Origin: Odiellus spinosus
Taxonomy: Eukaryota > Arthropoda > Arachnida > Opiliones > Phalangiidae
Direction: 5' to 3'
NCBI GenBank assembly: GCA_963920705.1
Contig: OY987227.1
Location: 2,737,526 to 2,801,525 of the forward strand
Length of the DNA stretch: 64,000 nucleotides
The notes beneath the pieces are model-generated. The model was not told the origin of the DNA, searched no databases, and was given only the letters and a program-made list of their open reading frames with translations. The first letter of the stretch is position 1; each line of letters opens with the position of its first letter. This document shows positions 1-33,473 of this stretch, one piece after another. Both the position numbers and the translations under genes were made by a program.

Positions 1-165
1 AATATGATTTCCAACAAAATAAGGTTCAGAAAATTTAAAATGCTATTTCACTATGTTCAAATTTTTGCGTTTTTTTTCTCAATTTTAAATGATTAAAATT
101 CTTTATCATAATGTAAGAAGCGCATCGGCTAACTTCCCCTATTTATTACGTTAAACTTTCCATAT

Positions 166-2811
166 GATATTGATATCTTCGCACTGACGGAAACATGGTT
201 TCATGATGATTACGGGGAATACTTAATAAATTATAACTTTGTAGGAACAGGACGCCCGATGGGTACAATGGGGGGAGGTGTGGGTTTCTACGTTAGAAAA
301 GACATACAATTCGAAATTATTCCAACACTCACTAGAAGGGAAGACGGCTTCGAAGCAATCGGGATAAAAATTGATAATTGCGTAGTAGGAGTAATTTACA
401 GGCCAGGAGGTAGTATCGGGGAATTCAGGGACAAACTTGATCCGTGGCTTCACGATCTGGGTCCACTAAACGCAAATAGAATTATTTTAGGCGACTTTAA
501 TATCGACCTAATGAAATCTAGTAGAGAATCAAAAATTCTTAACGATCTAACGCGAAGCATGGGATTAAATCAATTCGTAACGACATATACTAGAGTAACT
601 ACGACATCTAGATCCTTGATCGATCACTGTTATGCTAATACTGTGGTCACCGCGGATGTGATCCCTGATTGGGAGGTCACGGACCACTACCCTGTGCTAG
701 TAACACTCGATATCCCAGGGAGTTCAGAACATATTATTACCTCTCATAATACTTCAAAAAGGAATTTAGAAAAGTTTAGTCAATTTTTACAAATAGCCAG
801 ATGGGATGACATCTATACAAATGATAATTTAGATAATGTATTTAGGGACTTCTTGGGAAAATTAAATGAAGGCTATAAAAAATGTTGCCCGAAATTTGAC
901 TTAAAATTCAAAAGTAATGGCTCAAAAATTAGTCCTAACAATTGGATAAACGATGAGATCAAACAGGTAATAAAATCGAAGAATAAGCTCAAAAAACTAG
1001 CAAAATTAGTCCCGACGGAGGAAAACCAGTATAATTACAAAATATTCAGGAATAAATGCAACAATATAATAAGGAATGCCCGAAATTACTTCCTGCGAAC
1101 TCAACTTTTATCAAAAAATGGGGCTCGAGACACATGGAAGTTGGTTAATAACCTATTGGGCAAACCCGTAGCAAAAAGTTCCCCGGCTAAAATACCAATT
1201 GATCCCAAGGTTTTAAATACCTACTTTACTTCTCTTAACTCTATCGATGATGACTCGGATAATACCACGTTCGATTACGTTAAAACTAACAGGAACACAA
1301 TATTCCTCACCCCTGTCACGGAAACTGAAGTTCTGAGGACAATAAACAATCTTAAAGATGGTTCAGCCCCTGGAGCGGATGGGTTTTCGCCAAAAATTAT
1401 AAAGCTAGTTAAACTATTCTTAGTTAAACCTCTAACATATCTTATTAATTTATCTTTCAAAAAAGGCAAATACCCTAACATATTAAAAAAAGCTTTAATT
1501 ATCCCAATATTTAAAAAGGGGGACCCAAAAAATCCTCAAAACTATAGGCCAATTTCACTACTCTCAATTTTCGCGAAGATTTTCGACTCGTGCTTTTACT
1601 CTAGGTTACTCAACTTCCTAGATAAATACAATGTTATTTCCTCAAATCAATTTGGTTTCCGTCGCAACAGTGGGGTAGACTACGCAATCTCTAGAGTTTA
1701 CAAGAAAATACTAGACGGAATGGACCGGGGACAATTTGCGGTCGGGGTTTTTCTGGACCTCAAGAAAGCCTTTGATTATGTTAACCATAAAAGGTTGTTG
1801 AAAAAGCTATTTCTAGTAGGTATCAGAGGTGTGGCATATGACTGGCTAGAATCTTATTTAGCAAATAGGATAAGTCAGACCAAGGCCGATGGCCGTATCT
1901 CAGACTTGAACCAATATAAATGCGTGGTCCCTCAAGGGTCGATTCTGTCCCCGATATTATTTAATGTCTATATAAATGACATTCTATCGACCGTTGATGA
2001 TGATTCCCTAACACTCTATGCCGACGACAATGTCCTGGTAGATAGCGATAAAAATTACGAAAAGTTAATTGACAGAATTAATTATAAACTTATGAATGTT
2101 AACCAGTGGCTGAAAAATAACCTATTAGAACTGAACGTGGAAAAGACCGTATTTATGGTCTTCTCTAACGTAAATAAGGTTATTCCCACCGGCTTTGACA
2201 TGGTCATCAACAATACAATAATTAACAGAGTCAATGAATATAAATACTTGGGGCTTTGGTTTGACGAGAAACTTAATTGGGACTATCACATAGATAAGGT
2301 AGCAAAAAAGGTCTCATTTAACATCTATACAATAGCAAAAAATAGACAAATTTTCACTGATAACCTGTGCCTCCAATTATACTATGCTTTAGTTTACCCA
2401 CACTTAACATATGGCATACAAGTCTGGGGAAATACCTCCATGCAAAATCTAAACAGAATCTTCCTACTACAAAAAAGAATAATCCGCATTCTGTATCGAA
2501 AACCATTTCTGGAACACGCCAAACCTCTTTTTAACCAATCGGGCGTCCTAAATATTTTTCAACTATATAAATACTGTACTGTAAACTTCATATTCAAATC
2601 TATAACTGAAGGTATCTCTAATGTGTTTCAATTCGCACCCCTAAGCAGATACAATCTGCGCAATAAACCCCTTTTAAAACTACCGGCTGCTAATACGATA
2701 AAAAAAATCAATTCACTGTTCTACTCGGGTGTTAAACTATTTAATAATTTTAATATAAAAATATCACAAATGCCAAGGAATTTAAGTCAAAAGCTAAATT
2801 ATCCCCATTGA
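166..2811 (+). CDS. LINE-A ORF2: endonuclease-reverse transcriptase, nearly intact
   Basis: The protein would nick target DNA and reverse-transcribe the element RNA (target-primed reverse transcription). The first ATG in the open frame is at 259, giving 850 codons, but homology continues upstream in the same frame to about 166 (FALTETWFHDD, an AP-endonuclease-like motif). Further upstream, the expected N-terminal stretch (YHNVRSAS, from about 89) lies in another frame, so a single frameshift at about 145-165 separates it from the rest. The EEP endonuclease shows GDFNIDL near residue 77 of the 850 and a VTDHYPV motif near residue 140. The RT shows APGADGF, NYRPISLLS, QFGFR, DLKKAFD, VPQGSILSP and YADDN (about 2,010-2,030). 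The C-terminal region has the YGIQVWG and LLQKRIIR blocks common in this group. No RNase H domain is seen. Apart from the N-terminal shift the frame is fully open to 2,811. Confidence 0.9.
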   Translation, partial: DIDIFALTETWFHDDYGEYLINYNFVGTGRPMGTMGGGVGFYVRKDIQFEIIPTLTRREDGFEAIGIKIDNCVVGVIYRPGGSIGEFRDKLDPWLHDLGPLNANRIILGDFNIDLMKSSRESKILNDLTRSMGLNQFVTTYTRVTTTSRSLIDHCYANTVVTADVIPDWEVTDHYPVLVTLDIPGSSEHIITSHNTSKRNLEKFSQFLQIARWDDIYTNDNLDNVFRDFLGKLNEGYKKCCPKFDLKFKSNGSKISPNNWINDEIKQVIKSKNKLKKLAKLVPTEENQYNYKIFRNKCNNIIRNARNYFLRTQLLSKNGARDTWKLVNNLLGKPVAKSSPAKIPIDPKVLNTYFTSLNSIDDDSDNTTFDYVKTNRNTIFLTPVTETEVLRTINNLKDGSAPGADGFSPKIIKLVKLFLVKPLTYLINLSFKKGKYPNILKKALIIPIFKKGDPKNPQNYRPISLLSIFAKIFDSCFYSRLLNFLDKYNVISSNQFGFRRNSGVDYAISRVYKKILDGMDRGQFAVGVFLDLKKAFDYVNHKRLLKKLFLVGIRGVAYDWLESYLANRISQTKADGRISDLNQYKCVVPQGSILSPILFNVYINDILSTVDDDSLTLYADDNVLVDSDKNYEKLIDRINYKLMNVNQWLKNNLLELNVEKTVFMVFSNVNKVIPTGFDMVINNTIINRVNEYKYLGLWFDEKLNWDYHIDKVAKKVSFNIYTIAKNRQIFTDNLCLQLYYALVYPHLTYGIQVWGNTSMQNLNRIFLLQKRIIRILYRKPFLEHAKPLFNQSGVLNIFQLYKYCTVNFIFKSITEGISNVFQFAPLSRYNLRNKPLLKLPAANTIKKINSLFYSGVKLFNNFNIKISQMPRNLSQKLNYPH

Positions 2812-2979: not shown

Positions 2980-3008
2980 GGGCCTATAAGTCTGATCAGA
3001 CTTGGCCC
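2980..3008 (+). other. LINE-A 3' UTR hairpin, candidate RT recognition element
   Basis: AAGTCTGATCAGACTT (2,988-3,003) is a perfect palindrome. It sits inside a second stem, GGGCC (2,980-2,984) pairing with GGCCC (3,004-3,008), with a three-base TAT bulge on the 5' side. The hairpin lies about 60 bases before the tail. Some LINEs (for example UnaL2 and related stringent types) use a 3' stem-loop for recognition by their own RT; that role here is an inference. Confidence 0.7.
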
Positions 3009-3070
3009 AAAAACTGTAAATATGTAATTTCTAAAAGTACCAAATAAATAAACTAAACTAAACTAAACTA

Positions 3071-6000
3071 GCCTTTAACGATAAGTCGCCAGCTCAGTTT
3101 TAGTTCCAAATAAATAAATTAATTTTTTCGGTAAGGTACACTAGGCTCTTGGGCTTCCCTTTAGAACAATTTTTTCGATATTTTTGATGGGGCTTAGAAT
3201 TTGCACCACGCTGCTTTTATAGCTTAGACGGTTCTCTTTAAGAATTTAACCACTATTCAGTCCTAGCCTTTAACGATAAGTCGCCAGCTCAGTTTTAGTT
3301 CCAAATGAAGAAATTAATTTTTTCGGTAAGGTACACTAGGCTCTGGGGCTTCCCTTTAATCAATTTTTTTCGATCTTTTTGATGGGGCTTAGAATTTGCA
3401 CCACACTGCTTTTATAGCTTAGACGGTTCTCTTTAAGAATTTAAAAACTATTCAATCCTAGCCTTTAACGATAAGTCGCCAGCTCAGTTTTATTTCCAAA
3501 TAAATAAATTATTTTTTTCGGTAAGGTACACTAGGCTCTTGGGCTTCCCTTTAGATAAATTTTCTCGATCTTTTTGATGGGGCTTAGAATTTGCACAATG
3601 CTTATTTTGTAGCTTAGACGGTTCTCTTTAAGAATTTAGCCACGATTCAATCCTAGTCTTTAACTATAAGTCGCCAGCTCAGTTTTAGTTCCAAATGAAG
3701 AAATTAATTTTTTCGGTAAGGTACACTAGGCTCTTGGGCTTCACTTTAGATCAATTTTTTGATATTTTTGATGGGGCTGAGAATTTGCACCACGCTGCTT
3801 TTATAGCTTAGACGGTTCTCTTTAAGAATTTAACCACTATTCATTCCTATCCTCTTACGATAAGTCGCCAGCTCAGTTTTAGTTCCAAATAAATAAATTT
3901 TTTCGTTAAGGTACACTAGGCTTCCCTTTAGATCAAATTTTTCGATCTTTTTGATTGGGCTTAGAATTTGCACCACTCTGATTTTATAGCTTAGACGGTT
4001 TTCTTTATGAATTTAGCCACTATTCAATACTAGCCTCTAACGATAAGTCGCCAGCTCAGTTTTATTTCCAAATAAATAAATTAATTTTTTCGGTAAGGTA
4101 AACTAGGCTCTTGGGCTTCCCTTTAGAACAATTTTTTCGATCTTTCTAATGGGGCTTAGAATTTGCACAATGCTTATTTTGTAGCTTAGACGGTTCTCTT
4201 TAAGAATTTACCCACAATTCAATCCTAGTCTTTATCTATTAAGTCGCCAGCTCAGTTTTATTTCCAAATGAAGAAATTATTTTTTCGGTAAGGTACACTA
4301 GGCTCTTGGGCTTCCCTTTAGATCAATTTTTTCGATATTTTTGATGGGGCTTAGAATTTGCACCACGCTGCTTTTATAGATTAGACGGTTCTCTTTAAGA
4401 ATTTAACCACTATTCAGTCCTAGCCTTTAACGATAAGTCGCCAGCTCAGTTTTAGTTCCAAATGAAGAATTTTTTTTTTTTCGGTAAGGTACACTAGGCT
4501 CTTGGGCTTCCCTTTAGATCAATTTTTTCGATCTTTTTGATGGGGCTTAGAATTTGCACCACGCTGCTTTTCTAGCTTAGACGGTTCTCTTTAAGAATTT
4601 AACCACTATTCAATCCTAGCCCTTAACGTTAAGTCGCCAGCTCAGTTTTAGTTCCAAATAAAGAATTTTTTTTTCGGTAAGGTACACTAGGCTATTGGGC
4701 TTCCCTTTAGATCAATTTTTTCGATCTTTTTGATGGGGCTTAGAATTTGCACCACGCTGCTTTTATAGCTTAGACGGTTCTCTTTAAGAATTTAACCACT
4801 ATTCAATCCTAGCCTTTAACGATAAGTCGCCAGCTCAGTTTTAGTTCCAAATGAAGAAATTAATTTTTTTCGGTAAGGTACACTAGGCTCTTGGGCTTCC
4901 CTTTAGATCAATTTTTTCCATCTTTTTGATGGGGCTTAGAATTTGCAAAATGCTTATTTTGTAGCTTAGATGGTTCTCTTTAAGAATTTAGCCATGATTC
5001 AATTCTAGTCTTTAACTATAAGTCGCCAGCTCAGTTTTAGTTCCAAATAAATAAATTAATTTTTTCGGTATGGTACACTAGGCTCTTGGGCTTCCCTTTA
5101 GATTAATTTTTTCGATCTTTTTGATGGGGCTTAGAATTTGCACCACGCTGATTTTATAGCTTAGACGGTTCTCTTGAAGAATTTAGCCACTATTCAATCC
5201 TAGCCTTTAACAAAAGTCGCCAGCTCAGTTTTAGTTCCAAATGAAGAAATTCATTTTTTCGGTAAGGTACACTGGGCTCTTAAGCTTCCCTTTGGATCAA
5301 TTTTTTCTATCTTTTTGATGGGGCTTAGAATTTTCACAATGCTTATATTGTAGCTTAGACGGTTTTCTTCAAGAATTTAACCACTATTCAATCCTAGCCT
5401 TTAACGATAAGTCGCCAGCTCAGTTTTAGTTCCAAATAAATAAATTAATTTTTTCGGTATGGTACACTAGGCTCTTGGGCTTCCCTTTAGATCAATTTTT
5501 TCGATCTTTTTGATGGGGCTTAGAATTTGCACCACGCTGATTTTATAGCTTAGACGGTTCTCTTTAAGAATTTAGCCACTATTCAATCCTAGCCTTTAAC
5601 AAAAGTCGCCAGCTCAGTTTTAGTTCCAAATGAAGAAATTAATTTTTTCGGTAAGGTACACTAGACTCTTGGGCTTCCCTTAAGATCAATTTTTTCCATC
5701 TTTTTGATGGGGCTTAGAATTTGCAAAATGCTTATTTTGTAGCTTAGATGGTTCTCTTTAAGAATTTAGCCATGATTCAATTCTAGTCTTTAACTATAAG
5801 TTGCCAGCTCAGTTTTAGTTCCAAATGAAGCAATTAATTTTTTCGGTAAGGTACACTAGGCTCTTGGGCTTCAATTTTTGATCTTTTTGATGGGGCTTAG
5901 AATTTGCACCACGCTGCTTTTATAGCTTAGACAGTTCTCTTTAAGAATTTAACCACTATTCAATCCTAGCCTTTAACGATAAGTCGCCAGCTCAGTTTTA

Positions 6001-9000
6001 GTTCCAAATAAATAAATTAATTTTTTCGGTAAGGTACACTGGGCTCTTATGCTTCCCTTTAGATCAATTTTTTCGATCTTTTTGAAGGGGCTTAGAATTT
6101 ACACAATGCTTATATTGTAGCTTAGACAGTTTTCTTTAAGAATTTAGCCACTATTCAATCCTAGCCTTTAACGATAAGTCGCCAGCTCAGTTTTAGTTCC
6201 AAATGAAAAAATTAATTTTTCGGTAAGGTACACTAGGCTCTGGGGCTTCCCTTTAGATCAATTTTTTCGATATTTTTGATGGGGTTTAGAATTTGCACCA
6301 CGCTGCTTTTATAGCTTAGACGGTTCTCTTTAAGAATTTAACCACTATTCAATCCTAGCCTTTAACGATAAGTCGCCAGCTCAGTTTTAGTTCCAAATGA
6401 AGAAATTAATTTTTTCGGTAAGGTACACTAGGCTCTTGGGCTTCCCTTAAGATCAATTTTTTCCATCTTTTTGATGGGGCTTAGAATTTGCAAAATGCTT
6501 ATTTTGTAGCTTAGATGGTTCTCTTTAAGAATTTAGCCATGATTCAATTCTAGTCTTTAACTATAAGTCGCCAGCTCAGTTTTAGTTCCAAATGAAGCAA
6601 TTAATTTTTTCGGTAAGGTACACTAGGCTCTTGGGCTTCAATTTTTGATCTTTTTGATGGGCTTAGAATTTGCACCACGCTGCTTTTATAGCTTAGACGG
6701 TTCTCTTAAAGAATTTAACCACTATTCAATCCTAGCCTTTAACGATAAGTCGCCAGCTCAGTTTTAGTTCCAAATAAATAAATTAATTTTTTCGGTAAGG
6801 TACACTGGGCTCTTATGCTTCCCTTTAGATCAATTTTTTCGATCTTTTTGATGGGGCTTAGAATTTACACAATGCTTATATTGTAGCTTAGACAGTTTTC
6901 TTTAAGCATTTAGCCACTATTCAATCCTAGCCTTTAACGATAAGTCGCCAGCTCAGTTTTAGTTCCAAATAAATAAATTAATTTTTTCGGTATGGTACAC
7001 TAGGCTCTTGGGCTTCCCTTTAGATCAATTTTTTCGATCTTTTTGATGGGGCTTAGAATTTGCACCACGCTGATTTTATAGCTTAGACGGTTCTCTTGAA
7101 GAATTTAGCCACTATTCAATCCTAGCCTTTAACAAAAGTCGCCAGCTCAGTTTTAGTTCCAAATGAAGAAATTCATTTTTTCGGTAAGGTACACTGGGCT
7201 CTTAAGCTTCCCTTTGGATCAATTTTTTCTATCTTTTTGATGGGGCTTAGAATTTTCACAATGCTTATATTGTAGCTTAGACGGTTCTCTTCAAGAATTT
7301 AACCACTATTCAATCCTAGCCTTTAACGATAAGTCGCCAGCTCAGTTTTAGTTCCAAATAAATAAATTAATTTTTTCGGTATGGTACACTAGGCTCTTGG
7401 GCTTCCCTTTAGATCAATTTTTTCGATCTTTTTGATGGGGCTTAGAATTTGCACCACGCTGATTTTATAGCTTAGACGGTTCTCTTTAAGAATTTAGCCA
7501 CTATTCAATCCTAGCCTTTAACAAAAGTCGCCAGCTCAGTTTTAGTTCCAAATGAAGAAATTAATTTTTTCGGTAAGGTACACTAGACTCTTGGGCTTCC
7601 CTTAAGATCAATTTTTTCCATCTTTTTGATGGGGCTTAGAATTTGCAAAATGCTTATTTTGTAGCTTAGATGGTTCTCTTTAAGAATTTAGCCATGATTC
7701 AATTCTAGTCTTTAACTATAAGTTGCCAGCTCAGTTTTAGTTCCAAATGAAGCAATTAATTTTTTCGGTAAGGTACACTAGGCTCTTGGGCTTCAATTTT
7801 TGATCTTTTTGATGGGGCTTAGAATTTGCACCACGCTGCTTTTATAGCTTAGACAGTTCTCTTTAAGAATTTAACCACTATTCAATCCTAGCCTTTAACG
7901 ATAAGTCGCCAGCTCAGTTTTAGTTCCAAATAAATAAATTAATTTTTTCGGTAAGATACCCTAGGCTCTTGGGCTTCCCTTTAGATCAATTTTTTCGATA
8001 TTTTTATGGGGCTTAGAATTTGCACCACGCTGCTTTTATAGCTTAGACGGTTCTCTTTAAGAATTTAACCACTATTCAGTGCTAGCCTTTAACGATAAGT
8101 CGCCAGCTCAGTTTTAGTTCCAAATGAAGAAATTAATTTTTTCGGTAAGGTACACTAGGCTCTGGGGCTTCCCTTTAGATCAATTTTTTCGATCTTTTTG
8201 ATGGGGCTTAGAATTTGCACAATGCTTATTTAGTAGCTTACACGGTTCCCTTTAAGAATTTAGCCACGATCCAATCCTAGTCTTTAACTATAAGTCGCCA
8301 GCTCAGTTTTAGTTCCAAATAAATAAATTAATTATTTCGGTTGTGTACACTAGGCTCTTGGGCTTCCCTTTAGATCAATTTTTTCGATCTTTTTGATGGG
8401 GCTTAGAATTTGCACCACGCTGATTTTATAGCTTAGACGGTTCTCTTTAAGAATTTAGCCACTATTCAATCCTAGCCTTTAACAAAAGTCGCCAGCTAAG
8501 TTTTAGTTCCAAATGAAAAAATTAATTTTTCGGTAAGGTACACTAGGCTCTGGGACTTCCCTTTAGATCATTTTTTTCGATATTTTTGATGGGGTTTAGA
8601 ATTTGCACCACGCTAATTTTATAGCTTAGACGGTTCTCTTTAAGAATTTAGCCACTATTCAATCCTAGCCTCTAACGATAAGTCGCCAGCTCAGTTTTAT
8701 TTCCAAATAAATAAATTAATTTTTTCGGTAAGGTACACTAGGCTCTTGGGCTTCCCTTTAGAACAATTTTTTCGATCTTTTTAATGGAGCTTAGAATTTG
8801 CACAATGCTTATTTAGTAGCTTACACGGTTCCCTTTAAGAATTTAGCCACGATCCAATCCTAGTCTTTAACTATAAGTCGCCAGCTCAGTTTTAGTTCCA
8901 AATAAATAAATTAATTATTTCGGTTGTGTACACTAGGCTCTTGGGCTTCCCTTTAGATCAATTTTTTCGATATTTTTGATGGGGCTTAGAATTTGCACCA

Positions 9001-12000
9001 CGCTGCTTTTATAGCTTAGACGGTTCTCTTTAAGAATTTAACCACTATTCAATCCTAGCCTTTAACGATAAGTCGCCAGCTCAGTTTTAGTTCCAAATGA
9101 AGAAATTAATTTTTTCGGTAAGGTACACTAGGCTCTTGGGCTTCCCTTTAGATCAATTTTTTCCATCTTTTTGATGGGGCTTAGAATTTGCAAAATGCTT
9201 ATTTTGTAGCTTAGATGGTTGTCTTTAAGAATTTAGCCATGATTCAATTCTAGTCTTTAACTATAAGTCGCCAGCTCAGTTTAAGTTCCAAATGAAGAAA
9301 TTATTTTTTCGGTAAGGTACACTAGGCTCTTGGGCTTCCCTTTAGATCAATTTTTTCGATATTTTTGATGGGGCTTAGAATTTGCACCACGCTGCTTTTA
9401 TAGCTTAAACGGTTCTCTTTAAGAATTTAACCACTATTCAGTCCTAGCCTTTAACGATAAGTCGCCAGCTCAGTTTTAGTTCCAAATGAAGAAATTAATT
9501 TTTTCGGTAAGGTACACTAGGCTCTGGGGCTTCCCTTTAATCAATTTTTTCGATCTTTTTGATGGGGCTTAGAATTTGCACGATGCTTATTTAGTAGCTT
9601 AGACGGTTCTCTTGAAGAATTTAGCCACGATCCAATCCTAGTCTTTAACTATAAGTCGCCAGCTCAGTTTTAGTTCCAAATAAATAAATTAATTATTTCG
9701 GTAGTGTACACTAGGCTCTTGCGCTTCCCTTTAGATCAATTTCTTCGATATTTTTGATGGGGCTTAGAATTTGCACGACGCTGATTTTATAGCTTAGACG
9801 GTTTTCTTGAAGAATTTAGCCACTACTCAATCCTAGCCTCTAACGATAAGTCGCCAGCTCAGTTTTATTTCCAAATAAATAAATAAATTTTTTCGGTAAG
9901 GTACACTAGGCTCTTGGGCTTCCCTTTAGAACAATTTTTTCGATCTTTTTAATGGAGCTTAGAATTTGCACAATGCTTATTTTGTAGCTTAGACGGTTCT
10001 CTTTAAGAATTTAACCACTATTCAGTCCTAGCCTTTAACGATAAGTCGCCAGCTCAATTTTAGTTCCAAATGAAGAAATTATTTTTTCGGTAAGGTACAC
10101 TAGGCTCTTGGGCTTCCCTTTAGATCAATTTTTTCGATATTTTTGATGGGGCTTAGAATTTGCACCACGCTGCTTTTATAGCTTAGACGGTTCTCTTTAA
10201 AAATTTAACCACTATTCAGTCCTAGCCTTTAACGATAAGTCGCCAGCTCAGTTTTAGTTCCAAATGAAGAAATTTTTTTTTCGGTAAGGTACACTAGGCT
10301 CTTGGGCTTCCCTTTAGATCAATTTTTTCGATCTTTTTGATGGGGCTTAGAATTTACACCACGCTGCTTTTATAGCTTAGACGGTTCTCTTTAAGAATTT
10401 AACCACTATTCAATCCTAGCCTTTAACGTTAAGTTGCCAGCTCAGTTTTAGTTCCAAATGAAGAAATTAATTTTTTCGGTAAGGTACACTAGGCTCTGGG
10501 GCTTCCCTTTAGATCAATTTTTTCGATCTTTTTGATGGGGCTTAGAATTTGCACCACGCTGCTTTTATAGCTTAGACGGTTCTCTTTAAAAATTTAACCA
10601 CTATTCAGTCCTAGCCTTTAACGATAAGTCGCCAGCTCAGTTTTAGTTCCAAATGAAGAAATTTTTTTTTCGGTAAGGTACACTAGGCTCTTGGGCTTCC
10701 CTTTAGATCAATTTTTTCGATCTTTTTGATGGGGCTTAGAATTTACACCACGCTGCTTTTATAGCTTAGACGGTTCTCTTTAAGAATTTAACCACTATTC
10801 AATCCTAGCCTTTAACGTTAAGTTGCCAGCTCAGTTTTAGTTCCAAATGAAGAAATTAATTTTTTCGGTAAGGTACACTAGGCTCTGGGGCTTCCCTTTA
10901 GATCAATTTTTTCGATCTTTTTGATGGGGCTTAGAATTTGCACCACGCTGCTTTTATAGCTTAGACGGTTCTCTTTAAAAATTTAACCACTATTCAGTCC
11001 TAGCCTTTAACGATAAGTCGCCAGCTCAGTTTTAGTTCCAAATGAAGAAATTTTTTTTTCGGTAAGGTACACTAGGCTCTTGGGCTTCCCTTTAGATCAA
11101 TTTTTTCGATCTTTTTGATGGGGCTTAGAATTTACACCACGCTGCTTTTATAGCTTAGACGGTTCTCTTTAAGAATTTAACCACTATTCAATCCTAGCCT
11201 TTAACGTTAAGTTGCCAGCTCAGTTTTAGTTCCAAATGAAGAAATTAATTTTTTTCGGTAAGGTACACTAGGCTCTGGGGCTTCCCTTTAGATCAATTTT
11301 TTCGATCTTTTTGATGGGGCTTAGAATTTGCACCACGCTGCTTTTATAGCTTAGACCGTTCTCTTTAAGAATTTAGCCACGATTCAATCCTAGTCTTTAA
11401 CTATAAGTCGCCAGCTCAGTTTTAGTTCCAAATGAAGAAATTCATTTTTTCGGTAAGGTACACTAGGCTCTTGGGCTTCCCTTTAGATCAATTTTTTCGA
11501 TCTTTTTGACTGGTCTTAGAATTTGCACCACGCTGATTTTATAGTTTAGACGGTTCTCTTTAAGAATTTAGCCACTTTTCAATACTAGCCTTTAACGATA
11601 AGTCGCCAGCTCAGTTTTAGTTCGAAATGAAAAAATTAATTTTTTCGGTAAGGTACACTAGGCTCTTGCGCTTCCCTTTAGATCAATTTTTTCGATATTT
11701 TTGATTGGCTTAGAATTTGCAACACGACGGTTCTCAATAAGAATTAGCCACTATTCAATCCTAGCCTTTAAAGATAAGTCGCCAGCTCAGTTTTAGTTCC
11801 AAATGAAGAAATTAATTTTTTCGTTAAGGTACACTAGGCTCTTGGGCTTCCCTTTAAATCAATTTTTTCGCTCTTTTTGATGTTGCTTAGAATTTGCACC
11901 AGGCTGATTTTATAGCTTAGACCGTTCTCTTTAAGAATTTAGCCACGATTCAACCCTTGCCTTTGACGATAAGTCGCCAGCTCAGTTTTAGTTCCAAATT

Positions 12001-12181
12001 AAAAAATTAATTTTTGAGCAAGGCGCGCTAAGCTCTTTAGTTTCCCTTTAAATCAACTTTTTCGCCCTTTTTGATGGGGCTTAGAATTTGCACAATGCTT
12101 ATTTTGTAGCTTAGATGGTTCTCTTTAAGAATTTAGCCACTAATCAATCCTAGTCTTAAACTATAAGTCGCCAGCTCAGTT
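3071..12181 (+). repeat. Satellite array block 1, ~195-bp monomer, type A
   Basis: Head-to-tail copies of an AT-rich monomer. The motif GTCGCCAGCTCAG recurs at 3,084, 3,280, 3,475, 3,670 and 3,864, giving steps of 194-196 bp, and about 46 copies fit in this block. The monomer carries a well-conserved core (AAGTCGCCAGCTCAG, then TTTTAGTTCCAAAT), then CGGTAAGGTACACTAGGCTC, GGGGCTTAGAATTTGCAC and TAGCTTAGACGGTTCTC. Higher-order copies are visible (see separate entry). The last one or two monomers before LINE-B (about 12,000-12,130) are more divergent and resemble type B. No gene is seen in the block. Confidence 0.97.
10210..11230 (+). repeat. Higher-order dimer of satellite, three near-identical copies
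   Basis: A two-monomer unit repeats at 390-bp spacing. The variant with a long T run after AAATGAAGAAAT, followed by a monomer with AATTTACACCACGC, starts at about 10,262, 10,652 and 11,042. The three copies are almost identical to each other but differ from neighbouring monomers, which indicates recent local amplification. Confidence 0.85.
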
Positions 12182-12234
12182 GAATTTGAATTGAATTGAA
12201 TTTATTTCGATTTTTAAGGAATTACAAAGGTGGC

Positions 12235-12270
12235 GCGGGGCTAAGTCACAAAGCGACTTGTAAGCCCCGC
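12235..12270 (-). other. LINE-B copy 1 3' UTR hairpin
   Basis: In the LINE sense strand the order is GCGGGGCT, bulge TAC, AAGTC, a 7-base loop, GACTT, AGCCCCGC. The outer 8-bp and inner 5-bp stems are perfect. The architecture (GC-rich outer stem, TAY bulge, AAGTC/GACTT upper stem) matches the hairpin of the different element LINE-A at 2,980-3,008. It is a candidate recognition site for the element's RT. Confidence 0.75.
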
Positions 12271-12882
12271 AGTATATAGTAAGATAATTATATTAACATA
12301 TGCTTATTATAAAGCAAGATTAACAAAAAATAATAGTTAAATTAGTTAAAAATTTAATAATTTCTAAATTAAATTAAATTAAATTAAATTAGGGAGGCAA
12401 TTTGCGTATTGAACTAATGATATTTACAGCTCTCCTCCCAAGATTAGTTGCCTTATCTGCTTCTTAAAACATCTACTTGATTGTTTTAAGCTTTGGAGTT
12501 CTACAGTTAGCGAATTAAATAATTTACACCATTATAGTAAAGGGAAATTAGTTTTTTTGTGGTTTTACATAAAGGTACTTTCAACATCTCTATAGATCTC
12601 GTGTTTCTCGTTTTTTCTCTCTTAATGAAGTTTTTTGAGCCATATTTTAATTCTTCGTATATATAACAAATACTAACATATTTAAAACATTCGTTAACAT
12701 TTAATAATTTTGCTCGTTTGAAGTAATCAAAAGTATGGTGTCTAGAAGGGAGATTAAAAATACTTCGTAGTACTCTCTTCTGTAGGATTTGTATTCGATT
12801 AGTGTTATTATTGGATGTACATCCCCAGAATTGGAGACCATATGTCATTACTGAGTAGAATAGAGCGTAGTAAATTTCAAAT

Positions 12883-13682
12883 TATACAAAAACGTTGTTT
12901 TGCTTCGCACTTCAAAAAAGTGCATTTATAGGTAAGAATTTCAAACCCGTGAAGGGACAGAAATTATAAATTCACAGTGAAAGAAATCATAAAGCTAAAG
13001 TTATAATAATTAATATGAATAAAAAATTTACAAAAAAAGACGTATAAATTCGGCCTATCGAAACTTTTACTTATGTAGATTTAATGATTAGAAACTTTAT
13101 AAAGAGGCGAATGTTTCCTTTTACTAACTGAAAACTGCAACCATCTACATTCGATATCACCACTCTAGAGTCTAGGAGAAGGGAAAAAGTAAGAGTCAAC
13201 TAAACTTAAGTAGCTGTCAGATGACGATAACACGCGAGTAAAGGTTTGTTAGTTTATTCCCCGTGGTGAAACATGTTTAAAAATCAAGAGTCTCATCTAA
13301 ACAGCAACCCCTCTTAAGATAATATAATTCTCCACCCTAACAACTAAACATTTTAAAAACGCGGGCAGGAACTATTTGGTATTATGCTATTCTACCTTTC
13401 CACGCATAGATGGCTTTTAGTTACACTTACCAAGAGTGAATTCTACAACAGAATGACTTCTGCATAATTAAAAGTTTCGATAGGCCGAATTTATACGTCA
13501 TTTTTTTATAAATTTTTTATTCATATTAATTATTATAATTATAGCTTTATGATTTCTTAGACTGTGACTTTCATATTTCTTTCACTGTGAATTTATAATT
13601 TCTGTCCCTTCACGGGTTTGAAATTCTTACCTATAAATGCACTTTTTTGAAGTGCGAAGCAAAACAACGTTTTTGTATAATT
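12883..13682. mobile_element. MITE-like element with long (~190-220 bp) terminal inverted repeats
   Basis: The left arm (about 12,883-13,079) and right arm (about 13,459-13,682) are inverted copies of one another. They begin TATACAAAAACG and share the block around CACGGGTTTGAAATTC and the block around TTCGGCCTATCGAAAC. The middle of about 380 bp has no coding potential. The element is absent from LINE-B copy 2, so it arrived after the duplication. Superfamily is not clear: the ends sit in AAATT/AATTT and the duplication length is ambiguous. It looks like a non-autonomous fold-back DNA transposon. Confidence 0.75.
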
Positions 13683-15359
13683 TGTGTTTGCTTTTGGAAA
13701 AATTAAACACTAGTAGTCACAATTAATGTCTCTTCTCCTTCAATTTGGCGCTACAAGCGCCTTTCAATGACGTCACGTTTTATTTTTTGTTTGTTTGAGG
13801 GCTAATGGTGCAGGGTTAACTGGTTGCATTAGCGGCTGCTTTTGGCGATCAAGTATACTTTTCAATGACGTAATGAGTGCTAGAGAAAGATGGCCGAATA
13901 CACTCAAGTTTTGAAGAGCTTCTGTTGACGTCATCGTCGTCATAACCTTCCTAAAAGGACATTGGGCATATAGAATGCAACTAATAAAATAATAATAGAA
14001 CGATTTATTGTCTAACAAAATCATTACAGATACGGCAAAATATAATGATACCAATGAATCACAAATGTTAAGTAATTTTTTCAACTAGTTCGCGCCCAAA
14101 AGTTTGAAATTTCTGGTTCAGTCAGTTCATAAGAACTGGTTCCAAAGTTTCAAACGCCATCTCTCGCTCATAGACAGCACTACTTTATGTTACCGTAGCA
14201 TGAACAGGCCTCCTTTCCTGTTGTCTGGTCAAAAAATGTGACCTATAGACTTTGACATCACTTTCCCCTTAATGGCGCTACTCCGTCTATAGATAATCTA
14301 ATAAAAACTAAACAGTAAGTCAATTAGTTTTTTATGAAAACACTACAAATAATTTAAATTTTCCGCCGAGTTTTATTATAAAATTATCAATTTAACACGC
14401 CTGTTTCAGAGTCCATTTTACTAAGACATTTTGTAAGTCTCACCGCTATATATCATGGGGCTATTGTGAAATACCCAAGTTTAAGTACCCTGCTCGCTGC
14501 ATTTTATAATGATGATATAAAAAATTGTTCAGCCCACTTAAAAATTCAGCCTTGCAATAATAACAACGCGTAGAATGCTAGACACCATCTTATCTCTTTA
14601 AACCAGCGCATATTTGTTTATAGTTCCTGCCTTTTGCTCTATTACTTCTTTATAATTAAACATTGTAGATCGCTGTTCAGCCTTATCTTTGCAGCGCGTA
14701 AGAAGCTAGAAACCCATCTATCTCTTATTTACGCGTTTCTTAGAGATAGAGGGGAGCCTTACTAGTTACCCTATTCCGTCTTTCTCGGTCTTTCACGCTT
14801 TATCACGCTATTGTAATCTCGGTCTTTGTATTTAACTACAGAATGTTAAGAGTCCTTCAGTCAAACTAGCCTTTTTTTCACTCTTTTACCTTTGTCTCTA
14901 TTGCATCTTTCTAATTGAGACAATCTATTATATCCTAGTTCAACCATCTTTGCAACGCGTAAAAACTACAATACCTCTATCTCTTAACTATGCGTTTCTT
15001 ACAGATAGACTTAGAGTACCTCTATTCGGGCTAGCCCATTTATTTATCTATCTATCTAATGCAAACTCTCAATGAAACGCCGTCTTTCGCGGTGCTTGAA
15101 CGTTATCTATACCTTTTATCTGTCTTAGTATTCAACATTAGATAAGTATAGAGTACCCCCGCGATCCTAACATATTTTTCTCTCTCGAATGCAAACTCTC
15201 AATGAAACGGACTCGCGGTCGGACGAAGAAGAAGAAGAAAACGAAAACCTCAGTTATCATTGGCAAAAAAGATTCCACCTCATAAGACAAATCTCCATAG
15301 ACTTTTCTAATGAAATTTTGAGACACCTATAAATAAAACAGGCCAGCTGGCCTGTTTTT
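13683..15359. mobile_element. Unidentified insertion, right part of the composite in LINE-B copy 1
   Basis: This 1.7-kb non-coding stretch lies between the MITE and the resumption of LINE-B. Comparison with copy 2 shows that 12,883-15,359 as a whole is inserted, with AAT at both edges (12,880-12,882 and 15,360-15,362). It contains three diverged copies of a unit with TTTGCARCGCGTAA and TATCTCTTA blocks (near 14,550, 14,680 and 14,940), two copies of ATGCAAACTCTCAATGAAACG-like sequence (15,059 and 15,188), and a terminal palindrome, AACAGGCCAGCTGGCCTGTT, ending at about 15,357. Short reading frames here show nothing recognisable. The family is unknown. Confidence 0.55.
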
Positions 15360-17662
15360 AATAAAATTTTACGAGGTATCATATTTTTGCAGTAAAACAT
15401 TATCCCACAGACCCTACATAGGGTTTGGCTTATAATGTTTATATGGTAGTCCCAGGTAAGATGCGTGTCAAACCAAAGGCCAAGGTACTTATTCTTATCA
15501 ACTCGTTTAATTTCCATGTTATTAATTTCAACCCGACTTTCAATGTCCCCAATATCTCTACCTCGATTACGAAAAAGAATATATTCTGTCTTATCGATGT
15601 TAAGTCTTAACCCATTAGTGGTCAGCCATTTATAGATTATGCTCAGTTAGTAGAGGTATGGTATGAGTGATTTACATAATAATAGCGCGTCATCCGCATA
15701 CATATATAACTGGCCCAGAGGAATTTGATCTAATAGGTCATTGATATACAAGTTAAACAACAACGGAGAGATTATTGAGCCTTGGGGAACTCCTGATGTT
15801 AAATACTGAGATTGGGACAGTTTTTCACCTACTCTCGTGTAACATGGTCTATCTGTTAAGTAGCTTTTCAGCCAATCTCCCGCCACTCCCCGGATTCCCA
15901 TACGATATAATTTACTAAGACGTCTGTCATGCGCAATACTATCGAAGGCCTTCCGTAGGTCTAGGAACACTCCCACACATACGTGTCTGGTGTCTAGCGC
16001 GTCCAGGATAAATTTATAGGTCCCCGAGATGGCATTCATAGTACTTCTACCAGGTCTAAAGCCAAATTGATATTCGGAAAATAGATAATTATTCTCGGTA
16101 AATGACTTAAGTCGATTAAAATAGGCCTTATCAAATATCTTAGAAATAAAAGATAGAAGGGAGATTGGGCGATAGCTACCGGGACAGCTAACATTACCCT
16201 TCTTAAAGATGGGTATTATTACAGTTCTCTTGAGTTTATCAGGATAGGAGCCACTTTGAAAAGATAGATTTATCAAGTAGACCAACGGTAGTAGAAGATA
16301 TTGTATGGCTTTCTTCATTGGTTTCGAGTGGAAGTTATCAAGGCCTGGAGCGGAGCTTGCTTGTATAGTGTTAGAGATATTGAAGATTTCTCTTTCGTCA
16401 GCAGGATAAAGAGCCATGGTATGTGGGTTACTTTCTAGGTATGTATTAGGATCTCCCTGGCTAGCAAGTGCTTCGTTATTGGTGAAGCATTTGTTAAGTT
16501 GGTTCAAATCAATAGGTGTTCCCAATGAAGTTTTCTCACTTCGACCTAATATTTGATTTACAATTTTCCATTTGGTCTTGGATGAATCTGCCTCGATTAG
16601 TTTTTGATAATAATGGGAATTTCGCCGGTTTCTGATTAGATTATTACATTGATTTCTCAGTCGGAAATATTTATCTTTGTTTAATTGGGTGGGTAATCGT
16701 TTGTAGAGCTTTTGAAGTTTATGTTTCTGTCTAAGTAGAAGTTTAATTTCAGGGCTTATCGGTACCTGGAAGTTTATTTTGATATTTCTAATTTCGAAAC
16801 ACCTATTTTATTCAAGTACCAGTTTTTCTTCAAAGTAGTTATAGGCCTGGTTAATGTTAGTGATCAAGAATAGTTCTTCCCAATTTAAATTAGAGAGATT
16901 TGTACAGAATTTAATAATATTTGCTATACTCAGGTTACGGATTTTGGTCTCAGGGATAGCTTTTGTCATTTTGCCAAATCTTAAATGAATTGGATAATGG
17001 TCAGTGATATCAATTTGTTTAAGTACTTCAAAGGTTCCATCGTAATTAGCAAGTACGTTATCAATACATGTAGAACTTGTAGCTGTAACTCTTGTGGGTT
17101 CATGAATAATTCGCTTAAGGTCATAACTTAGGAATAGATCAACCAGTGCTGAAGCACATGGTGACTCTACCAGGAGATCAACGTTAAAGTCTCCCAAAAC
17201 TGTTTTATTTACCTTACCCGTACCCATACCTTTGCAATAAGTTCAAGGAGGTTTAGAAAATTATCATACACAGCAGTGTGTGGTCTGTAAATAATTGCGT
17301 AGTAGTCCCCAGTGTTCGTGTTTTTTATGACAAAACTCTCAATGTCGCCAGTAAAATAACAGAGGTCAGTGATTATTGTAAAGTTAATGTTTTCCCTATA
17401 GTAGAATCCCACCCCACCCCTAATCTATTTCCACGTCCTACAAATTTGTAATTTGGCAGATATAAATGATAATCATCCCGGAACCAAGTCTCTGTTAATG
17501 CAATTATATGTGGATTTATTCCAAGTGTCACAATTGTTGTCATGAAAGCAGGTAGATTATGATTGGCACTTCTAATGTTCGAGTAAACTAGTGTCATTTA
17601 AGTAAATATTGGGTTCACTAGTTAGTATTACAATTCTAATAATAAAAATAAAAGTTTTGTAT

Positions 17663-18396: not shown

Positions 18397-18469
18397 TATT
18401 ATAGCGTTATTAAGTTAAAGTTAGAGCACAAGCGAAAATTAAACGGAAAAATTTAGGGATTGTTAATAT

Positions 18470-24800: not shown

Positions 24801-26534
24801 TTTTGATCAATTTCTTCGATATTTTTGATGGGGCTTAGAATTTGCACCACGCTGCTTTTATAGCTTAGACGGTTCTCTTTAAGAATTTAACCACTATTCA
24901 GTCCTAGCCTTTAACGGTAAGTCGCCAGCTCAGTTTTAGTTCCAAATGAAGAAATTAATTTTTTCGGTAAGGTACACTAGGCTCTTGGGCTTCACTTTAG
25001 ATCAATTTTTTGATATTTTTGATGGGGCTGAGAATTTGCACCACGCTGCTTTTATAGCTTAGACGGTTCTCTTTAAGAATTTAACTACTATTGAGTCCTA
25101 TCATTTAACGATAACTCGCCAGCTTCTTAAAGACGATCTCTTTAAGAATTTAACCACTATTCATTCCTATCCTCTAACGATAAGTCGCCAGCTCAGTTTT
25201 AGTTCCAAATAAATAAATTAATTTTTTCGTTAAGGTACTCTAGGCTTCCCTTTAGATCAATTTTTTCGATCTTTTTGATTGGGCTTAGAATTTGCACCAC
25301 GCTGATTTTATAGCTTAGACGGTTTTCTTTATGAATTTAGCCACTATTCAATACTAGCCTCTAACGATAAGTCGCCAGCTCAGTTTTATTTCCAAATAAA
25401 TAAATAATTTTTTTCGGTAAGGTACACTAGGCTCTTGGGCTTCCCTTTAGAACAATTTTTTCGATCTTTTTGATGGGGCTTAGAATTTGCACCACGCTGC
25501 TTTTATAGCTTAGACCGTTCTCTTTAAGAATTTAGCCACGATTCAATCCTAGTCTTTAACTATAAGTCGCCAGCTCAGTTTTAGTTCCAAATGAAGAAAT
25601 TCATTTTTTCGGTAAGGTACACTAGGCTCTTGGGCTTCCCTTTAGATCAATTTTTTCGATCTTTTTGACTGATCTTAGAATTTGCACCACGCTGATTTTA
25701 TAGTTTAGACGGTTCTCTTTAAGAATTTAGCCACTTTTCAATCCTAGCCTTTAACGATAAGTCGCCAGCTCAGTTTTAGTTCGAAATGTAGAAATTAATT
25801 TTTTCGGTAAGGTACACTAGGCTCTTGGGCTTCCCTTTAGATCATTTTTTTCGATCTTTTTGATGGGGCTTAGAATTTGCACCACGCTGATTTTATAGAT
25901 TAGACGGTTCTCTTTAAGAATTTAGCCACTATTCAATCCAGCCTTTAACGATAAGTCGCCAGCTCAGTTTTAGTTCCCAATAAATAATTTAATTTTTTCG
26001 GTAAGGTACACTAGGCTCTTGCGCTTCCCTTTAGATCAATTTTTTCGATATTTTTGATTGGCTTAGAATTTGCAACACGACGGTTCTCAATAAGAATTAG
26101 CCACTATTCAATCCTAGCCTTTAAAGATAAGTCGCCAGCTCAGTTTTAGTTCCAAATGAAGAAAAAATTTTTTTCGGTAAGGTACACTAGGCTCTTGGGC
26201 TTCCCTTTAAATCAATTTTTTCGCTCTTTTTGATGGTGCTTAGAATTTGCACCAGGCTGATTTTATAGCTTAGACCGTTCTCTTTAAGAATTTAGCCACG
26301 ATTCAACCCTTGCCTTTGACGATAAGTCGCCAGCTCAGTTTTAGTTCCAAATTAAAAAATTAATTTTTTAGCAAGGCGCGCCAAGCTCTTTAGTTTCCCT
26401 TTAAATCAACTTTTTCGCCCTTTTTGATGGGGCTTAGAATTTGCACAATGCTTATTTTGTAGCTTAGATGGTTCTCTTTAAGAATTTAGCCACTATTCAA
26501 TCCTAGTCTTAAACTATAAGTCGCCAGCTCAGTT
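18883..26534 (+). repeat. Satellite array block 2, ~195-bp monomer, type A
   Basis: About 39 head-to-tail monomers in the same orientation and of the same type as block 1. A higher-order unit of about 2.78 kb (about 14 monomers) is visible: the odd variant GCTTCTTAAAGACGATCTC near 22,335 recurs near 25,118, with matching neighbours on both sides. The last kilobase (25,490-26,534) matches 11,340-12,181 of block 1 closely, and the first few hundred bases match the start of block 3 (39,967 on). This shows that the satellite flanks were duplicated together with LINE-B. No gene is seen. Confidence 0.97.
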
Positions 26535-26587
26535 GAATTTGAATTGAATTGAATTTATTTCGATTGTTAAGGAATTACAAAGGTGGC

Positions 26588-26623
26588 GCGGGGCTAAGTC
26601 ACAAAGCGACTTGTAAGCCCCGC
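26588..26623 (-). other. LINE-B copy 2 3' UTR hairpin
   Basis: Same hairpin as in copy 1: GCGGGGCT, TAC bulge, AAGTC, loop, GACTT, AGCCCCGC in the element sense. Both stems are unchanged from copy 1. Confidence 0.75.
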
Positions 26624-26853
26624 AGTATATAGTAAGATAAATATATTAACATATGCTTAATATAAAGCAAGATTAACAAAAAATAATAGTTAAATTAGTT
26701 AAAAATTTAATAATTTCTAAATTAAATTAAATTAAATTAAATTAGGGAGGCAATTTGCGTATTGAACTAATGATATTTACAGCTCTCCTCCCAAGTTTAG
26801 TTGCCTTATCTGCTTCTTAAAACATCTACTTGATTGTTTTAAGCTTTGGAGTT

Positions 26854-29487
26854 CTACAGTTCGCGAATTAAATAATTTACACCATTATAGTAAAGGGAAA
26901 TTAGTTTTTTTGTGGTTTTACATAAAGGTACTTTCAACATCTCTATAGATCTCGTGTTTCTCGTTTTTTCTCTCTTAATGAAGTTTTTTGAGCCATATTT
27001 TAATTCTTCGTATATATAACAAATACTAACATATTTAAAACATTCGTTAACATTTAATAATTTTGCTCGTTCGAAGTAATCAAAAGTATGGTGTCTAGAA
27101 GGGAGATTAAAAATACTTCGTAGTACTCTCTTCTGTAGGATTTGTATTCGATTAGTGTTATTATTGGATGTACATCCCCAGAATTGGAGACCATATGTCA
27201 TTACTGAGTAGAATAGAGCGTAGTAAATTTCAAATAAAATTTTACGAGGTATCATATTTTTGCAGTAAAACATTATCCCACAGACCCTACATAGGGTTTG
27301 GCTTATAATGTTTATATGGTAGTCCCAGGTAAGATGCGTGTCAAACCAAAGGCCAAGGTACTTATACTTATCAACTCGTTTAATTTCCATGTTATTAAAT
27401 TCAACCCGACTTTCAATGTCCCCAATATCTCTACCTCGATTACGAAAAAGAACATATTCTGTCTTATCGATGTTAAGTCTTAACCCATTAGTGGTCAGCC
27501 ATTTATAGATTATGCTCAGGTAGTAGTTAGTAGAGGTAATGGCCGATTCTGGTATGAGTGATTTACATAATAATAGCGCGTCATCCGCATACATATATAA
27601 CTGGCCCAGAGGAATTTGATCTAATAGGTCATTGATATACAAGTTAAACAACAACGGAGAGATTATTGAGCCTTGGGGAACTCCTGATGTTAAATATTGA
27701 GATTGGGACAGTTTTTCACCTACTCTCGTGTAACATGGTCTATCTGTTAAGTAGCTTTTCAGCCAATCTCCCGCCACTCCCCGGATTCCCATACGATATA
27801 ATTTACTAAGAAGTCTGTCATGCGCAATACTATCGAAGGCCTTCCGTAGGTCTAGGAACACTCCCACACATACGTGTCTGGTGTCTAGCGCGTCCAGGAT
27901 AAATTTATAGGTCCCCGAGATGGCATTCATAGTACTTCTACCAGGTCTAAAGCCAAATTGATATTCGGAAAATAGATAATTATTCTCGGTAAATGACTTA
28001 AGTCGATTAAAATAGGCCTTATCAAATATCTTAGAGATAAAAGATAGAAGGGAGATTGGGCGATAGCTACCGGGACAGCTAACATCACCATTCTTAAAGA
28101 TGGGTATTATTACAGTTCTCTTGAGTTTATCAGGATAGGAGCCACTTTGAAAAGATAGATTTATCAAGTAGACCAACGGTAGTAGAAGATATTGTATGGC
28201 TTTCTTCATTGGTTTCGAGTGGAAGTTATCAAGGCCTGGAGCGGAGCTTGCTGGTAAAGTGTTAGAGATATTGAAGATTTCTCTTTCGTCAGCAGGATAA
28301 AGAGCCATGGTATGTGGGTTACTTTCTAGGTATGTATTAGGATCTCCCTGGCTAGCAAGTGCTTCGTTATTGGTGAAGCATTTGTTAAGTTGGTTCAAAT
28401 CAATAGGTGTTCCCAATGAAGTTTTCTCACTTCGACCTAATATTTGATTTACAATTTTCCATTTGGTCTTGGATGAATCTGCCGCGATTAGTTTTTGATA
28501 ATAATGGGAATTTCGCCGGTTTCTGATTAGATTATTACATTGATTTCTCAGACGGAAATATTTATCGTTGTTTAATTGGGTGGGTAATCGTTTGTAGAGC
28601 TTTTGAAGTTTATGTTTCTGTCTAAGTAGAAGTTTAATTTCAGGGCTTATCGGTACCTGGAAGTTTATTTTGATATTTCTAATTTCGAAACACCTATTAT
28701 ATTCAAGTACCAGTTTTTCTTCAAAGTAGTTATAGGCCTGGTTAATGTTAGTGATCAAGAATAGTTCTTCCCAATTTAAATTAGAGATTTGTACAGAATT
28801 TAATAATATTTGCTTTACTCAGGTTACGGATTTTGGTCTCAGGGATAGCTTTTGTCATTTTGCCAAATCTTAAATGAATTGGATAATGGTCAGTGATATC
28901 AATTTGTTTAAGTACTTCAAAGGTTCCATCGTAATTAGCAAGTACGTTATCAATACATGTAGAACTTGTAGCTGTAACTCTTGTGGGTTCATGAATAATT
29001 CGCTTAAGGTCATAACTTAGGAATAGATCAACCAGTGCTGAAGCACATGGTGACTCTACCAGGAGATCAACGTTAAAGTCTCCCAAAACTGTTTTATTTA
29101 CCTTACCCGTACCCATACCAATTGCAATAAGTTCAAGGAGGTTTAGAAAATTATCATACACAGCAGTGTGTGGTCTGTAAATAATTGCGTAGTAGTCCCC
29201 AGTGTTCGTGTTTTTTATGACAAAACTCTCAATGTCGCCAGTAAAATAACAGAGGTCAGTGATTATTGTAAAGTTAATGTTTTCCCTATAGTAGAATCCC
29301 ACCCCACCCCTAATCTATTTCCATGTCCTACAAATTTGTAATTTGGCAGATATAAATGATAATCATCCCGGAACCAAGTCTCTGTTAATGCAATTATATC
29401 TGGATTTATTCCAAGTGTCACAATTGTTGTCATGAAAGCAGGTAGATTATGTTTGGCACTTCTAATGTTCGAGTAAACTAGTGTCAT
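26854..29487 (-). pseudogene. LINE-B copy 2 ORF2 (EEP-RT), two frameshifts, RT open
   Basis: This is the best-preserved LINE-B ORF2. The N-terminal EEP part starts at 29,487 (MTLVYSNIRSAK). The frame shifts near 29,300, where a run of G after NRLG is one base short; copy 1 has the same lesion. The EEP continues as GFYYRENINF, GDFNVDL and ITDHYPI to about 28,785, where a two-base loss absent from copy 1 shifts the frame again. From 28,758 to 26,854 an open frame of 634 codons covers the connector and the whole RT (SAPGLDNFH, YRPISLLS, QFGFRPGRS, DLRKAFDS, VPQGSIISP, YADDALL) and the C-terminal QFWG and LQKRVLRS blocks. No RNase H domain is present. Confidence 0.92.
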
Positions 29488-33460: not shown

Positions 33461-33473
33461 ATCCCAGCTCGCT

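Follow-up and report, generated by a model that had tools for sequence, protein, structure and literature searches.

Zebrafish ZfL2 LINEs no longer retrotranspose when their 3' stem-loop is deleted or swapped. The stem-loop is bound by about 50 residues that lie between the endonuclease and the reverse transcriptase (RT); within this region, a conserved part is considered to read the stem and a variable part to read the loop (PMC4176376). For UnaL2, PMC4176376 and PMC3747384 relate that a bulged nucleotide in the stem is important for retrotransposition.

In anatomy, the LINE group analyzed here resembles ZfL2-1 and ZfL2-2 of the L2 clade in having an upper and a lower stem in the 3' UTR before a repeat tail, and an ORF2 with an endonuclease, a basic linker and an RT (PMC4176376). 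According to the same article, specificity lies in the loop of ZfL2, whereas here the inner stem AAGUC/GACUU and an A-centred bulge are constant and the loops vary. Residue W344 of ZfL2-2 had no evident counterpart in 25 aligned ORF2 rows. A short hairpin near a tail of 5-bp repeats is shared with UnaL2 (RF00436; PMC4176376 and PMC3747384), but the three-base bulge is not. RF00436 was not among the Rfam matches of the LINE-A and LINE-B 3' ends up to E 10, and at its gathering score it was absent in 15 sources; the few Rfam matches to these ends lay above E 0.3, far below the cut-offs. The genome scan with RF00436 gave no match, but its controls matched nowhere either, so that it shows no absence.

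Plant L1-clade LINE and SINE 3' hairpins (Ohshima) likewise show compensatory stem changes; they belong to another clade, conserve the loop and the 3' flank and are shared with SINEs, whereas no SINE was seen here (PMC3747384). The amniote CR1 3' UTR combines a conserved hairpin, suspected to be an RT recognition site, with a repeat motif that is an octamer, in contrast to the mostly 3- to 6-mer or A-run tails found here (PMC4316615). A search of the structure database (PDB) returned L1 and R2 as eukaryotic LINE relatives. In titles and abstracts of the open-access literature we recognised no description of the present hairpin, which is weak evidence of novelty. The present hairpin is a well-supported addition to a kind of 3' recognition device that is already known. 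In anatomy, the group fits the pattern of stringent-type LINEs, with an endonuclease and RT in ORF2 and a 3' stem-loop by a repeat tail.

Hairpins of LINE-A and LINE-B in the window

The window, the whole 64,000-nucleotide stretch of Odiellus spinosus DNA analyzed here, contains two different LINEs for which the sequence-only reading had reported hairpins at three places. Their positions and sequences proved exact, and they fold as described (Table 1). As RNA of 111 nt, the LINE-B hairpin folds at -25.6 kcal/mol (z -4.40), a stability equalled by 0 of 200 shuffles. The LINE-A hairpin (111 nt, -16.0 kcal/mol, z -1.95) was equalled by 7 of 200, and taken alone it folds only modestly better than shuffles. 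The motif AAGTC...GACTT by itself is near chance in the window (5 matches against 1.89 expected; 4 of 100 shuffles reach 5). This does not hold for the complete structure: a covariance model whose seed took in LINE-A and LINE-B themselves scored 41.8-48.7 bits at the three hairpins, against 17.1 for the next best match in the window.

Table 1 Positions of LINE-A and LINE-B features in the window
Feature	Position	Strand	Details and basis
LINE-A ORF2	133..2811	+	892-aa stop-to-stop frame; endonuclease at residues 11-185, RT at 465-709
LINE-A endonuclease-RT linker, candidate tail-binding region	943..1167	+	basic-rich; begins W271
LINE-A 3' hairpin	2980..3008	+	outer stem GGGCC (2980-2984)/GGCCC (3004-3008), bulge TAT (2985-2987), inner stem AAGTC (2988-2992)/GACTT (2999-3003), 6-nt loop TGATCA (2993-2998); sequence, RNA fold, covariance model 41.8 bits
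UGUA after LINE-A hairpin	3015..3018	+	second UGUA at 3023-3026
LINE-A AATAAA	3043..3048	+	overlaps start of tail array
LINE-A tail (TAAAC)n	3045..3070	+	then satellite
LINE-B copy 1 tail (TTCAA)n on minus strand	12180..12202	-	repeat scan
LINE-B copy 1 AATAAA	12201..12206	-	sequence
LINE-B copy 1 UGUA	12223..12226	-	sequence
LINE-B copy 1 3' hairpin	12235..12270	-	outer stem GCGGGGCT/AGCCCCGC, bulge TAC, inner stem AAGTC/GACTT, 7-nt loop; covariance model 48.7 bits
LINE-B copy 1 RT region	15353..16477 (contig 2752878-2754002)	-	~3 kb from own hairpin
LINE-B copy 2 tail (TTCAA)n on minus strand	26533..26555	-	repeat scan
LINE-B copy 2 AATAAA	26554..26559	-	sequence
LINE-B copy 2 3' hairpin	26588..26623	-	sequence identical to copy 1; covariance model 48.7 bits
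LINE-B copy 2 ORF2 part	26857..28818	-	654 aa frame, RT PF00078 7.6e-44

The sequence-only reading was right in its main point, but three of its details had to be corrected, one of them the bulge (see below). The repeat tail, placed 50-65 bp beyond the hairpin by the sequence-only reading, begins 36 nt after the hairpin end in LINE-A and 32 nt after it in LINE-B. Furthermore, the two LINE-B copies are one insertion duplicated with its flanks at 95-99% identity and make one observation. The duplicated segments are 12,101-12,882 and 26,454-27,235 (99.1%), 15,360-17,853 and 27,233-29,743 (98.3%), and 17,850-19,000 and 38,961-40,081 (95.4%, satellite included). Relative to copy 2, copy 1 has an extra 2.5 kb between its RT region and its hairpin.

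LINE-A ORF2 matches the Pfam endonuclease family PF03372 (2.2e-13) and the RT family PF00078 (2.1e-34), and an RNase H family is absent from its Pfam matches up to E 0.001; in the truncated 654-aa frame of LINE-B copy 2, the RT is the only Pfam match. The LINE-A linker between endonuclease and RT holds 23.5% K+R over 68 residues, against 13.3% across the whole ORF. In an alignment of the 25 of 60 loci with an open frame long enough, 19 of them distinct, this basic linker is conserved.

Hairpin anatomy and compensatory change in related loci

Searches of the host genome (443 Mb) gave at least 87 matches with the RT region of LINE-A and at least 88 with that of LINE-B, the match lists resting on the best 87 of 1803 and 85 of 1710 first-look candidates scored. 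We took 3' flanks from 92 loci, 60 with 1.5-kb flanks and 32 as 1 kb stretches. A script that sought an outer stem, a three-base bulge, an inner stem and a loop, with acceptance by score and eye, yielded 80 hairpins, to which the variant L077 was added by eye. Thus, 81 of the 92 loci downstream of related LINE RTs carry the hairpin, on LINEs whose RTs are down to about 42% identical. That two different LINEs share one hairpin architecture is therefore no coincidence, nor is the hairpin missing from other elements of the clade, the finding that would have spoken against the sequence-only reading. At E up to 0.1, the covariance model R1 picks out the sense-strand hairpin at 76 of the 92 loci.

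The counts of hairpin anatomy, pair types and downstream signals below refer to 80 of the 92 loci (left out were L022, L037, L042, L045, L066, L069, L077, L084, L086, L088, L089 and L091). These 80 represent 48 distinct hairpins, with near-identical copies among them, and some are worn (L003, L004, L080). As for loci without an intact hairpin, L022 keeps the 5' half only and L045 has N at the site. At L042 one arm was lost to a short internal deletion beside an open RT frame, its sister copy L041 being whole, which makes L042 a natural hairpin mutant. An exact hairpin stands about 3 kb further downstream on the same strand at L037, L066 and L089. Within about 900 bp, no hairpin was found at 5 of the 92 loci (L069, L084, L086, L088 and L091); L069 has a one-mismatch match about 1.1 kb downstream.

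In these 80 loci, the outer stem has 4-9 bp, mostly with GGC near its upper end. Above it stands a 5-bp inner stem, nearly constantly AAGUC/GACUU (AAATC/GATTT and AAGTT/AACTT also occur), with three unpaired bases below it on the 5' side and, in 20 of 80, one extra unpaired base opposite this bulge on the 3' side. The loop measures 6 nt in 48 loci, 7 nt in 31 and 8 nt in 1; most LINE-A-like families have the 6-nt form and most LINE-B-like families the 7-nt form. The bulge, thought to be a fixed TAY, turned out to be TAY in only 47 of 80 loci and is better written N-A-N, its middle base being A in 78 of 80 (TAT 27, TAC 20, TAA 16, AAT 7, AAA 2, AAC 2, GAA 2, and CAA, TAG, TCA and TTA once each).

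Covariation was scored in alignment A1, which holds 34 distinct hairpins from chosen families without the extra base opposite the bulge and so leans to the simple form. Its covariation score was 0.327, against 0.139 when shuffled (0 of 500) and 0.023-0.117 for slid partners. Paired cells amounted to 88.0% (77.3% shuffled, 0 of 500), and both sides had changed in 67 cells (26.8 shuffled, 0 of 500). Weaker measures were the pairs with a both-side change (8 of 14 against 6.8 shuffled; 11 of 500) and the further pair types (24 against 21.2 shuffled; 29 of 500). Across the 48 distinct hairpins, the pair below the bulge is CG in 33, TA in 12, AT in 2 and GC in 1; the middle inner pair is GC in 38, AT in 6, GU in 1 and unpaired in 3; and the loop-closing pair is TA in 20, GU in 14, AT in 7 and GC in 7, counts that are flattered since the scripts picked the hairpin and the extra base (none or one) partly by pairing.

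The least biased test of covariation is a genome-wide (443 Mb) pattern search in which one pair is left free. We ran the pattern GGCYTANAAGTC-N6-GACTTRGCC and an N7 form that was also R/Y-free in the inner stem. Exact matches numbered 63 for the N6 form and 71 for the N7 form, 134 in total, against 0 for reversed control patterns in the same genome. Letters were available for 132 of the 134, making up 50 distinct strings, so that copies inflate the counts that follow. With four Y/R combinations allowed, the pair below the bulge was C-G or T-A in 132 of 132 matches; the inner R/Y pair was G-C, A-T or, once, G-U; and the first and last loop bases, wholly free in the pattern, were paired in 130 of 132 (49 of 50 distinct strings). 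Together with the covariation in A1, the genome-wide counts rule out chance as the origin of the hairpin.

An RT tree of 60 of the 92 loci (60 rows, 50 different; quick method, SH-aLRT only) divides into a LINE-A-like and a LINE-B-like group of 30 each. On this tree, we count 3 changes for the pair below the bulge, with 3 on either side, 11 for the fifth outer pair (7 and 9 on its sides) and 4 for the loop-closing pair (3 and 2). There are likewise 3 for the middle inner pair, but its 5' side changes 3 times and its 3' side once, so some inner-stem changes are uncompensated. Consequently, the covariation anticipated for further copies is borne out for the outer stem in A1, the 48 distinct hairpins and the RT tree; for the upper stem it holds in part, as the changes of the middle inner pair are not all compensated.

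We also compared the hairpin with its surroundings in 435 pairs of 30 representatives, taking the mean identity by RT-identity class. Within the hairpin these means were 0.67-0.88; the 100 nt preceding it gave 0.57-0.65 and the 30 nt following it 0.58-0.62, while chance alignments gave 0.57-0.59. The hairpin is thus far better conserved than the adjoining 3' UTR, as would be expected of a selected structure. Because the flanking UTR is near chance identity, shared descent without selection is rejected. On both grounds, compensatory change in the stems and an identity above that of the flanking UTR, the proposal of a selected RNA structure stands.

Genomic position and candidate function

We next asked where the exact pattern matches lie. 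Of the 134, 57 follow one of the 117 listed RTs on the same strand at a distance of up to 700 bp, and 62 do so at up to 5 kb. Downstream on the opposite strand there were 0; upstream on the same strand there were 0 within 1.5 kb and 1 within 5 kb. Seven of ten further RT matches have an exact hairpin match within 6 kb downstream, two of the seven lying in one element. In a Pfam RT survey (best 150 of 2822 first-look candidates, with our own split into LINE-length and short), we looked at RVT_1 matches absent from the two lists: of 24 with LINE length, 1 had an exact match within 6 kb and may be a member of the same clade, and of 71 short, LTR-like ones, none had. By the exact pattern, then, the hairpin is almost confined to this LINE group; other LINEs could have hairpins of another form. 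The remaining 72 exact matches, more than 5 kb from any listed RT, could be 5'-truncated LINEs, unlisted RTs or rare SINEs. With up to two mismatches the patterns matched 194 times (control 5) and 219 times (control 7); by these counts, which are indirect, the hairpin is not borne by any abundant SINE. Hence the expectation that a hairpin model would hit SINEs or other LINE families did not hold beyond that 1 of 24.

Two scans of viral contigs found no relatives. Prokaryote assemblies contained 33 related loci, with covariance model matches no better than E 0.56, and several of these loci are presumably eukaryotic LINE contaminants (about 30% identity). Only one distant LINE, L094, could be read at its 3' end; AATAAA and an (ATT)n tail are present there, but the covariance model finds no match. 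Its record is titled a bacterial MAG, and it is presumably a eukaryotic contaminant. Within the group, two insertions stand out by their neighbours. At L081 (1-602), the LINE end and the 3' end of a tRNA gene are about 30 bp apart, the gene being one of a tandem array of tRNA genes with a 150-bp period; this is one case of a possible target preference. On contig C33 (325511-326730), a hairpin precedes the next same-strand RT match by about 80 bp, an arrangement that looks like two LINEs in head-to-tail order.

The hairpin is real, is kept by compensatory change and goes with this LINE group. We consider it probable that it is the 3'-terminal recognition element of one stringent-type non-LTR retrotransposon clade, bound by the element's own ORF2 protein; binding by the RT is inferred by analogy with ZfL2 and UnaL2 (PMC4176376). 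In the element RNA, the hairpin consists of a variable GC-rich outer stem, an internal loop that is asymmetric (three 5' bases, of which the middle one is nearly always A, against 0 or 1 opposite), a nearly constant 5-bp inner stem and a 6-8-nt loop. The basic ORF2 region between endonuclease and RT would bind this hairpin; we propose this linker because it is a conserved basic stretch in the same place as the ZfL2 binding region. Through this binding, the RT would be positioned for target-primed reverse transcription at the short repeat tail, which in the window copies begins 32-36 nt beyond the hairpin. Given their constancy, the inner helix and the A-centred bulge, rather more than the loop, may be the parts that are read. 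All of this evidence comes from one genome and is based on sequence and predicted folds.

UGUA and AAUAAA are known host signals. We counted them in 66 distinct ends from the 80 loci, taking distances from just beyond the fourth outer pair. In 57 of 66 ends a UGUA lies in the first 45 nt, compared with a mean of 26.9 and a maximum of 38 in 200 shuffles and with 27 of 66 in the upstream stretch; in 33 of 66 it starts at 12-15 nt, which is about 10 nt past the hairpin end. AATAAA occurs within 90 nt downstream in 61 of 66 (shuffles: mean 24.6, maximum 34; upstream 7 of 66), mostly immediately 5' of tails whose units are AATTG, ATTTG, AAAC, ATT, A and others; some A-rich tails supply it themselves. 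The 3' order is thus hairpin, UGUA, AAUAAA and repeat tail, and the two downstream signals would make the 3' end of the RNA.

This enrichment of both signals above shuffles and upstream sequence is also what a different function would produce, in which the hairpin belongs to a 3'-end module read by the host for cleavage and polyadenylation, RNA stability or export and is no RT binding site. We regard this as quite unlikely. Such a module would be expected at other LINEs or host genes, yet there are only 134 exact matches in 443 Mb and 1 among the 24 other LINE-length RTs; the hairpin types follow the RT tree; and host poly(A) signals are not known to need such a hairpin.

The tails bear on another possibility, that the hairpin docks a different element protein (the ORF1 protein, or for packaging) or protects the 3' end while the RT reads the repeat tail only. 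In many loci the tails are short repeats or A-runs, which could be recognised alone, but their sequences differ widely between families while the hairpin stays, and in the closest tested cases it is the ORF2 protein that binds (PMC4176376); this account therefore seems very improbable to us.

That the hairpin acts as DNA, as a palindrome or cruciform, or as a transcription terminator is scarcely credible: it is nearly palindromic, the model matching the opposite strand at 18.5-20.0 bits in 14 loci and nearly reaching the sense-strand score in L015-L017 (20.0 against 22.7 bits), but the sense strand reaches 38.6-48.3 bits in the remaining loci with an antisense match, the three-base bulge stays on one fixed side, and sense-strand G-U wobbles exceed A-C cells, 29 against 13 (14 of the 29 being the loop-closing pair, where they are common in the LINE-B group).

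Returning to recognition by ORF2, a wider version of that reading is possible, if rather doubtful. The constant inner helix and the A-bulge might form a clade-wide docking module, read alike by ORF2 proteins about 42% identical in RT while outer stem and loop drift, so that one family could mobilise the RNAs of another in trans; the hairpin might moreover form, with UGUA and AAUAAA, a composite 3' module that spaces host cleavage against RT capture. One genome offers dozens of natural covarying hairpin variants (48 distinct in 80 loci) beside the ORF2 proteins presumed to read them, spanning two main loop classes and four Watson-Crick types at one pair. If recognition by ORF2 is true, natural swaps could directly test which segments of the protein read which segments of the hairpin.

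Surroundings of the LINEs in the window

LINE-A and the duplicated LINE-B unit both adjoin arrays of a satellite of about 195 bp, which forms long arrays at 3068-12181, 18903-26534, 39984-43265 and 58638-62821. A satellite 12-mer, AAGTCGCCAGCT, present within the region 12150-12205, recurs in the hairpin of the LINE in L041, and the LINE-B tail meets the satellite 3 bp beyond this 12-mer. The common 12-mer is probably due to chance and less probably to a connection between the LINE 3' end and its target. Against the covariance model, satellite copies scored 12-17 bits (best E 0.045 for the window), having only the outer stem and adjoining bases in common with it. This likeness is probably due to chance, and the satellite is an unlikely source of the hairpin.

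Each LINE-B duplicate holds an extra stretch of its own, at 12882-15360 (about 2.5 kb) and 29743-38961 (about 9.2 kb). A 21-bp tandem repeat of about twelve copies with 96% matches lies at 34715-34962. Elsewhere in the window, a frame at 43709-44509 is without a Pfam match. A 986-aa frame at 53404-56364 matches DNA polymerase type B, organellar and viral (PF03175, 2.6e-10), with a further frame beside it at 56821-57585; we take the region 53404-57585 to be possibly a Polinton-like element.
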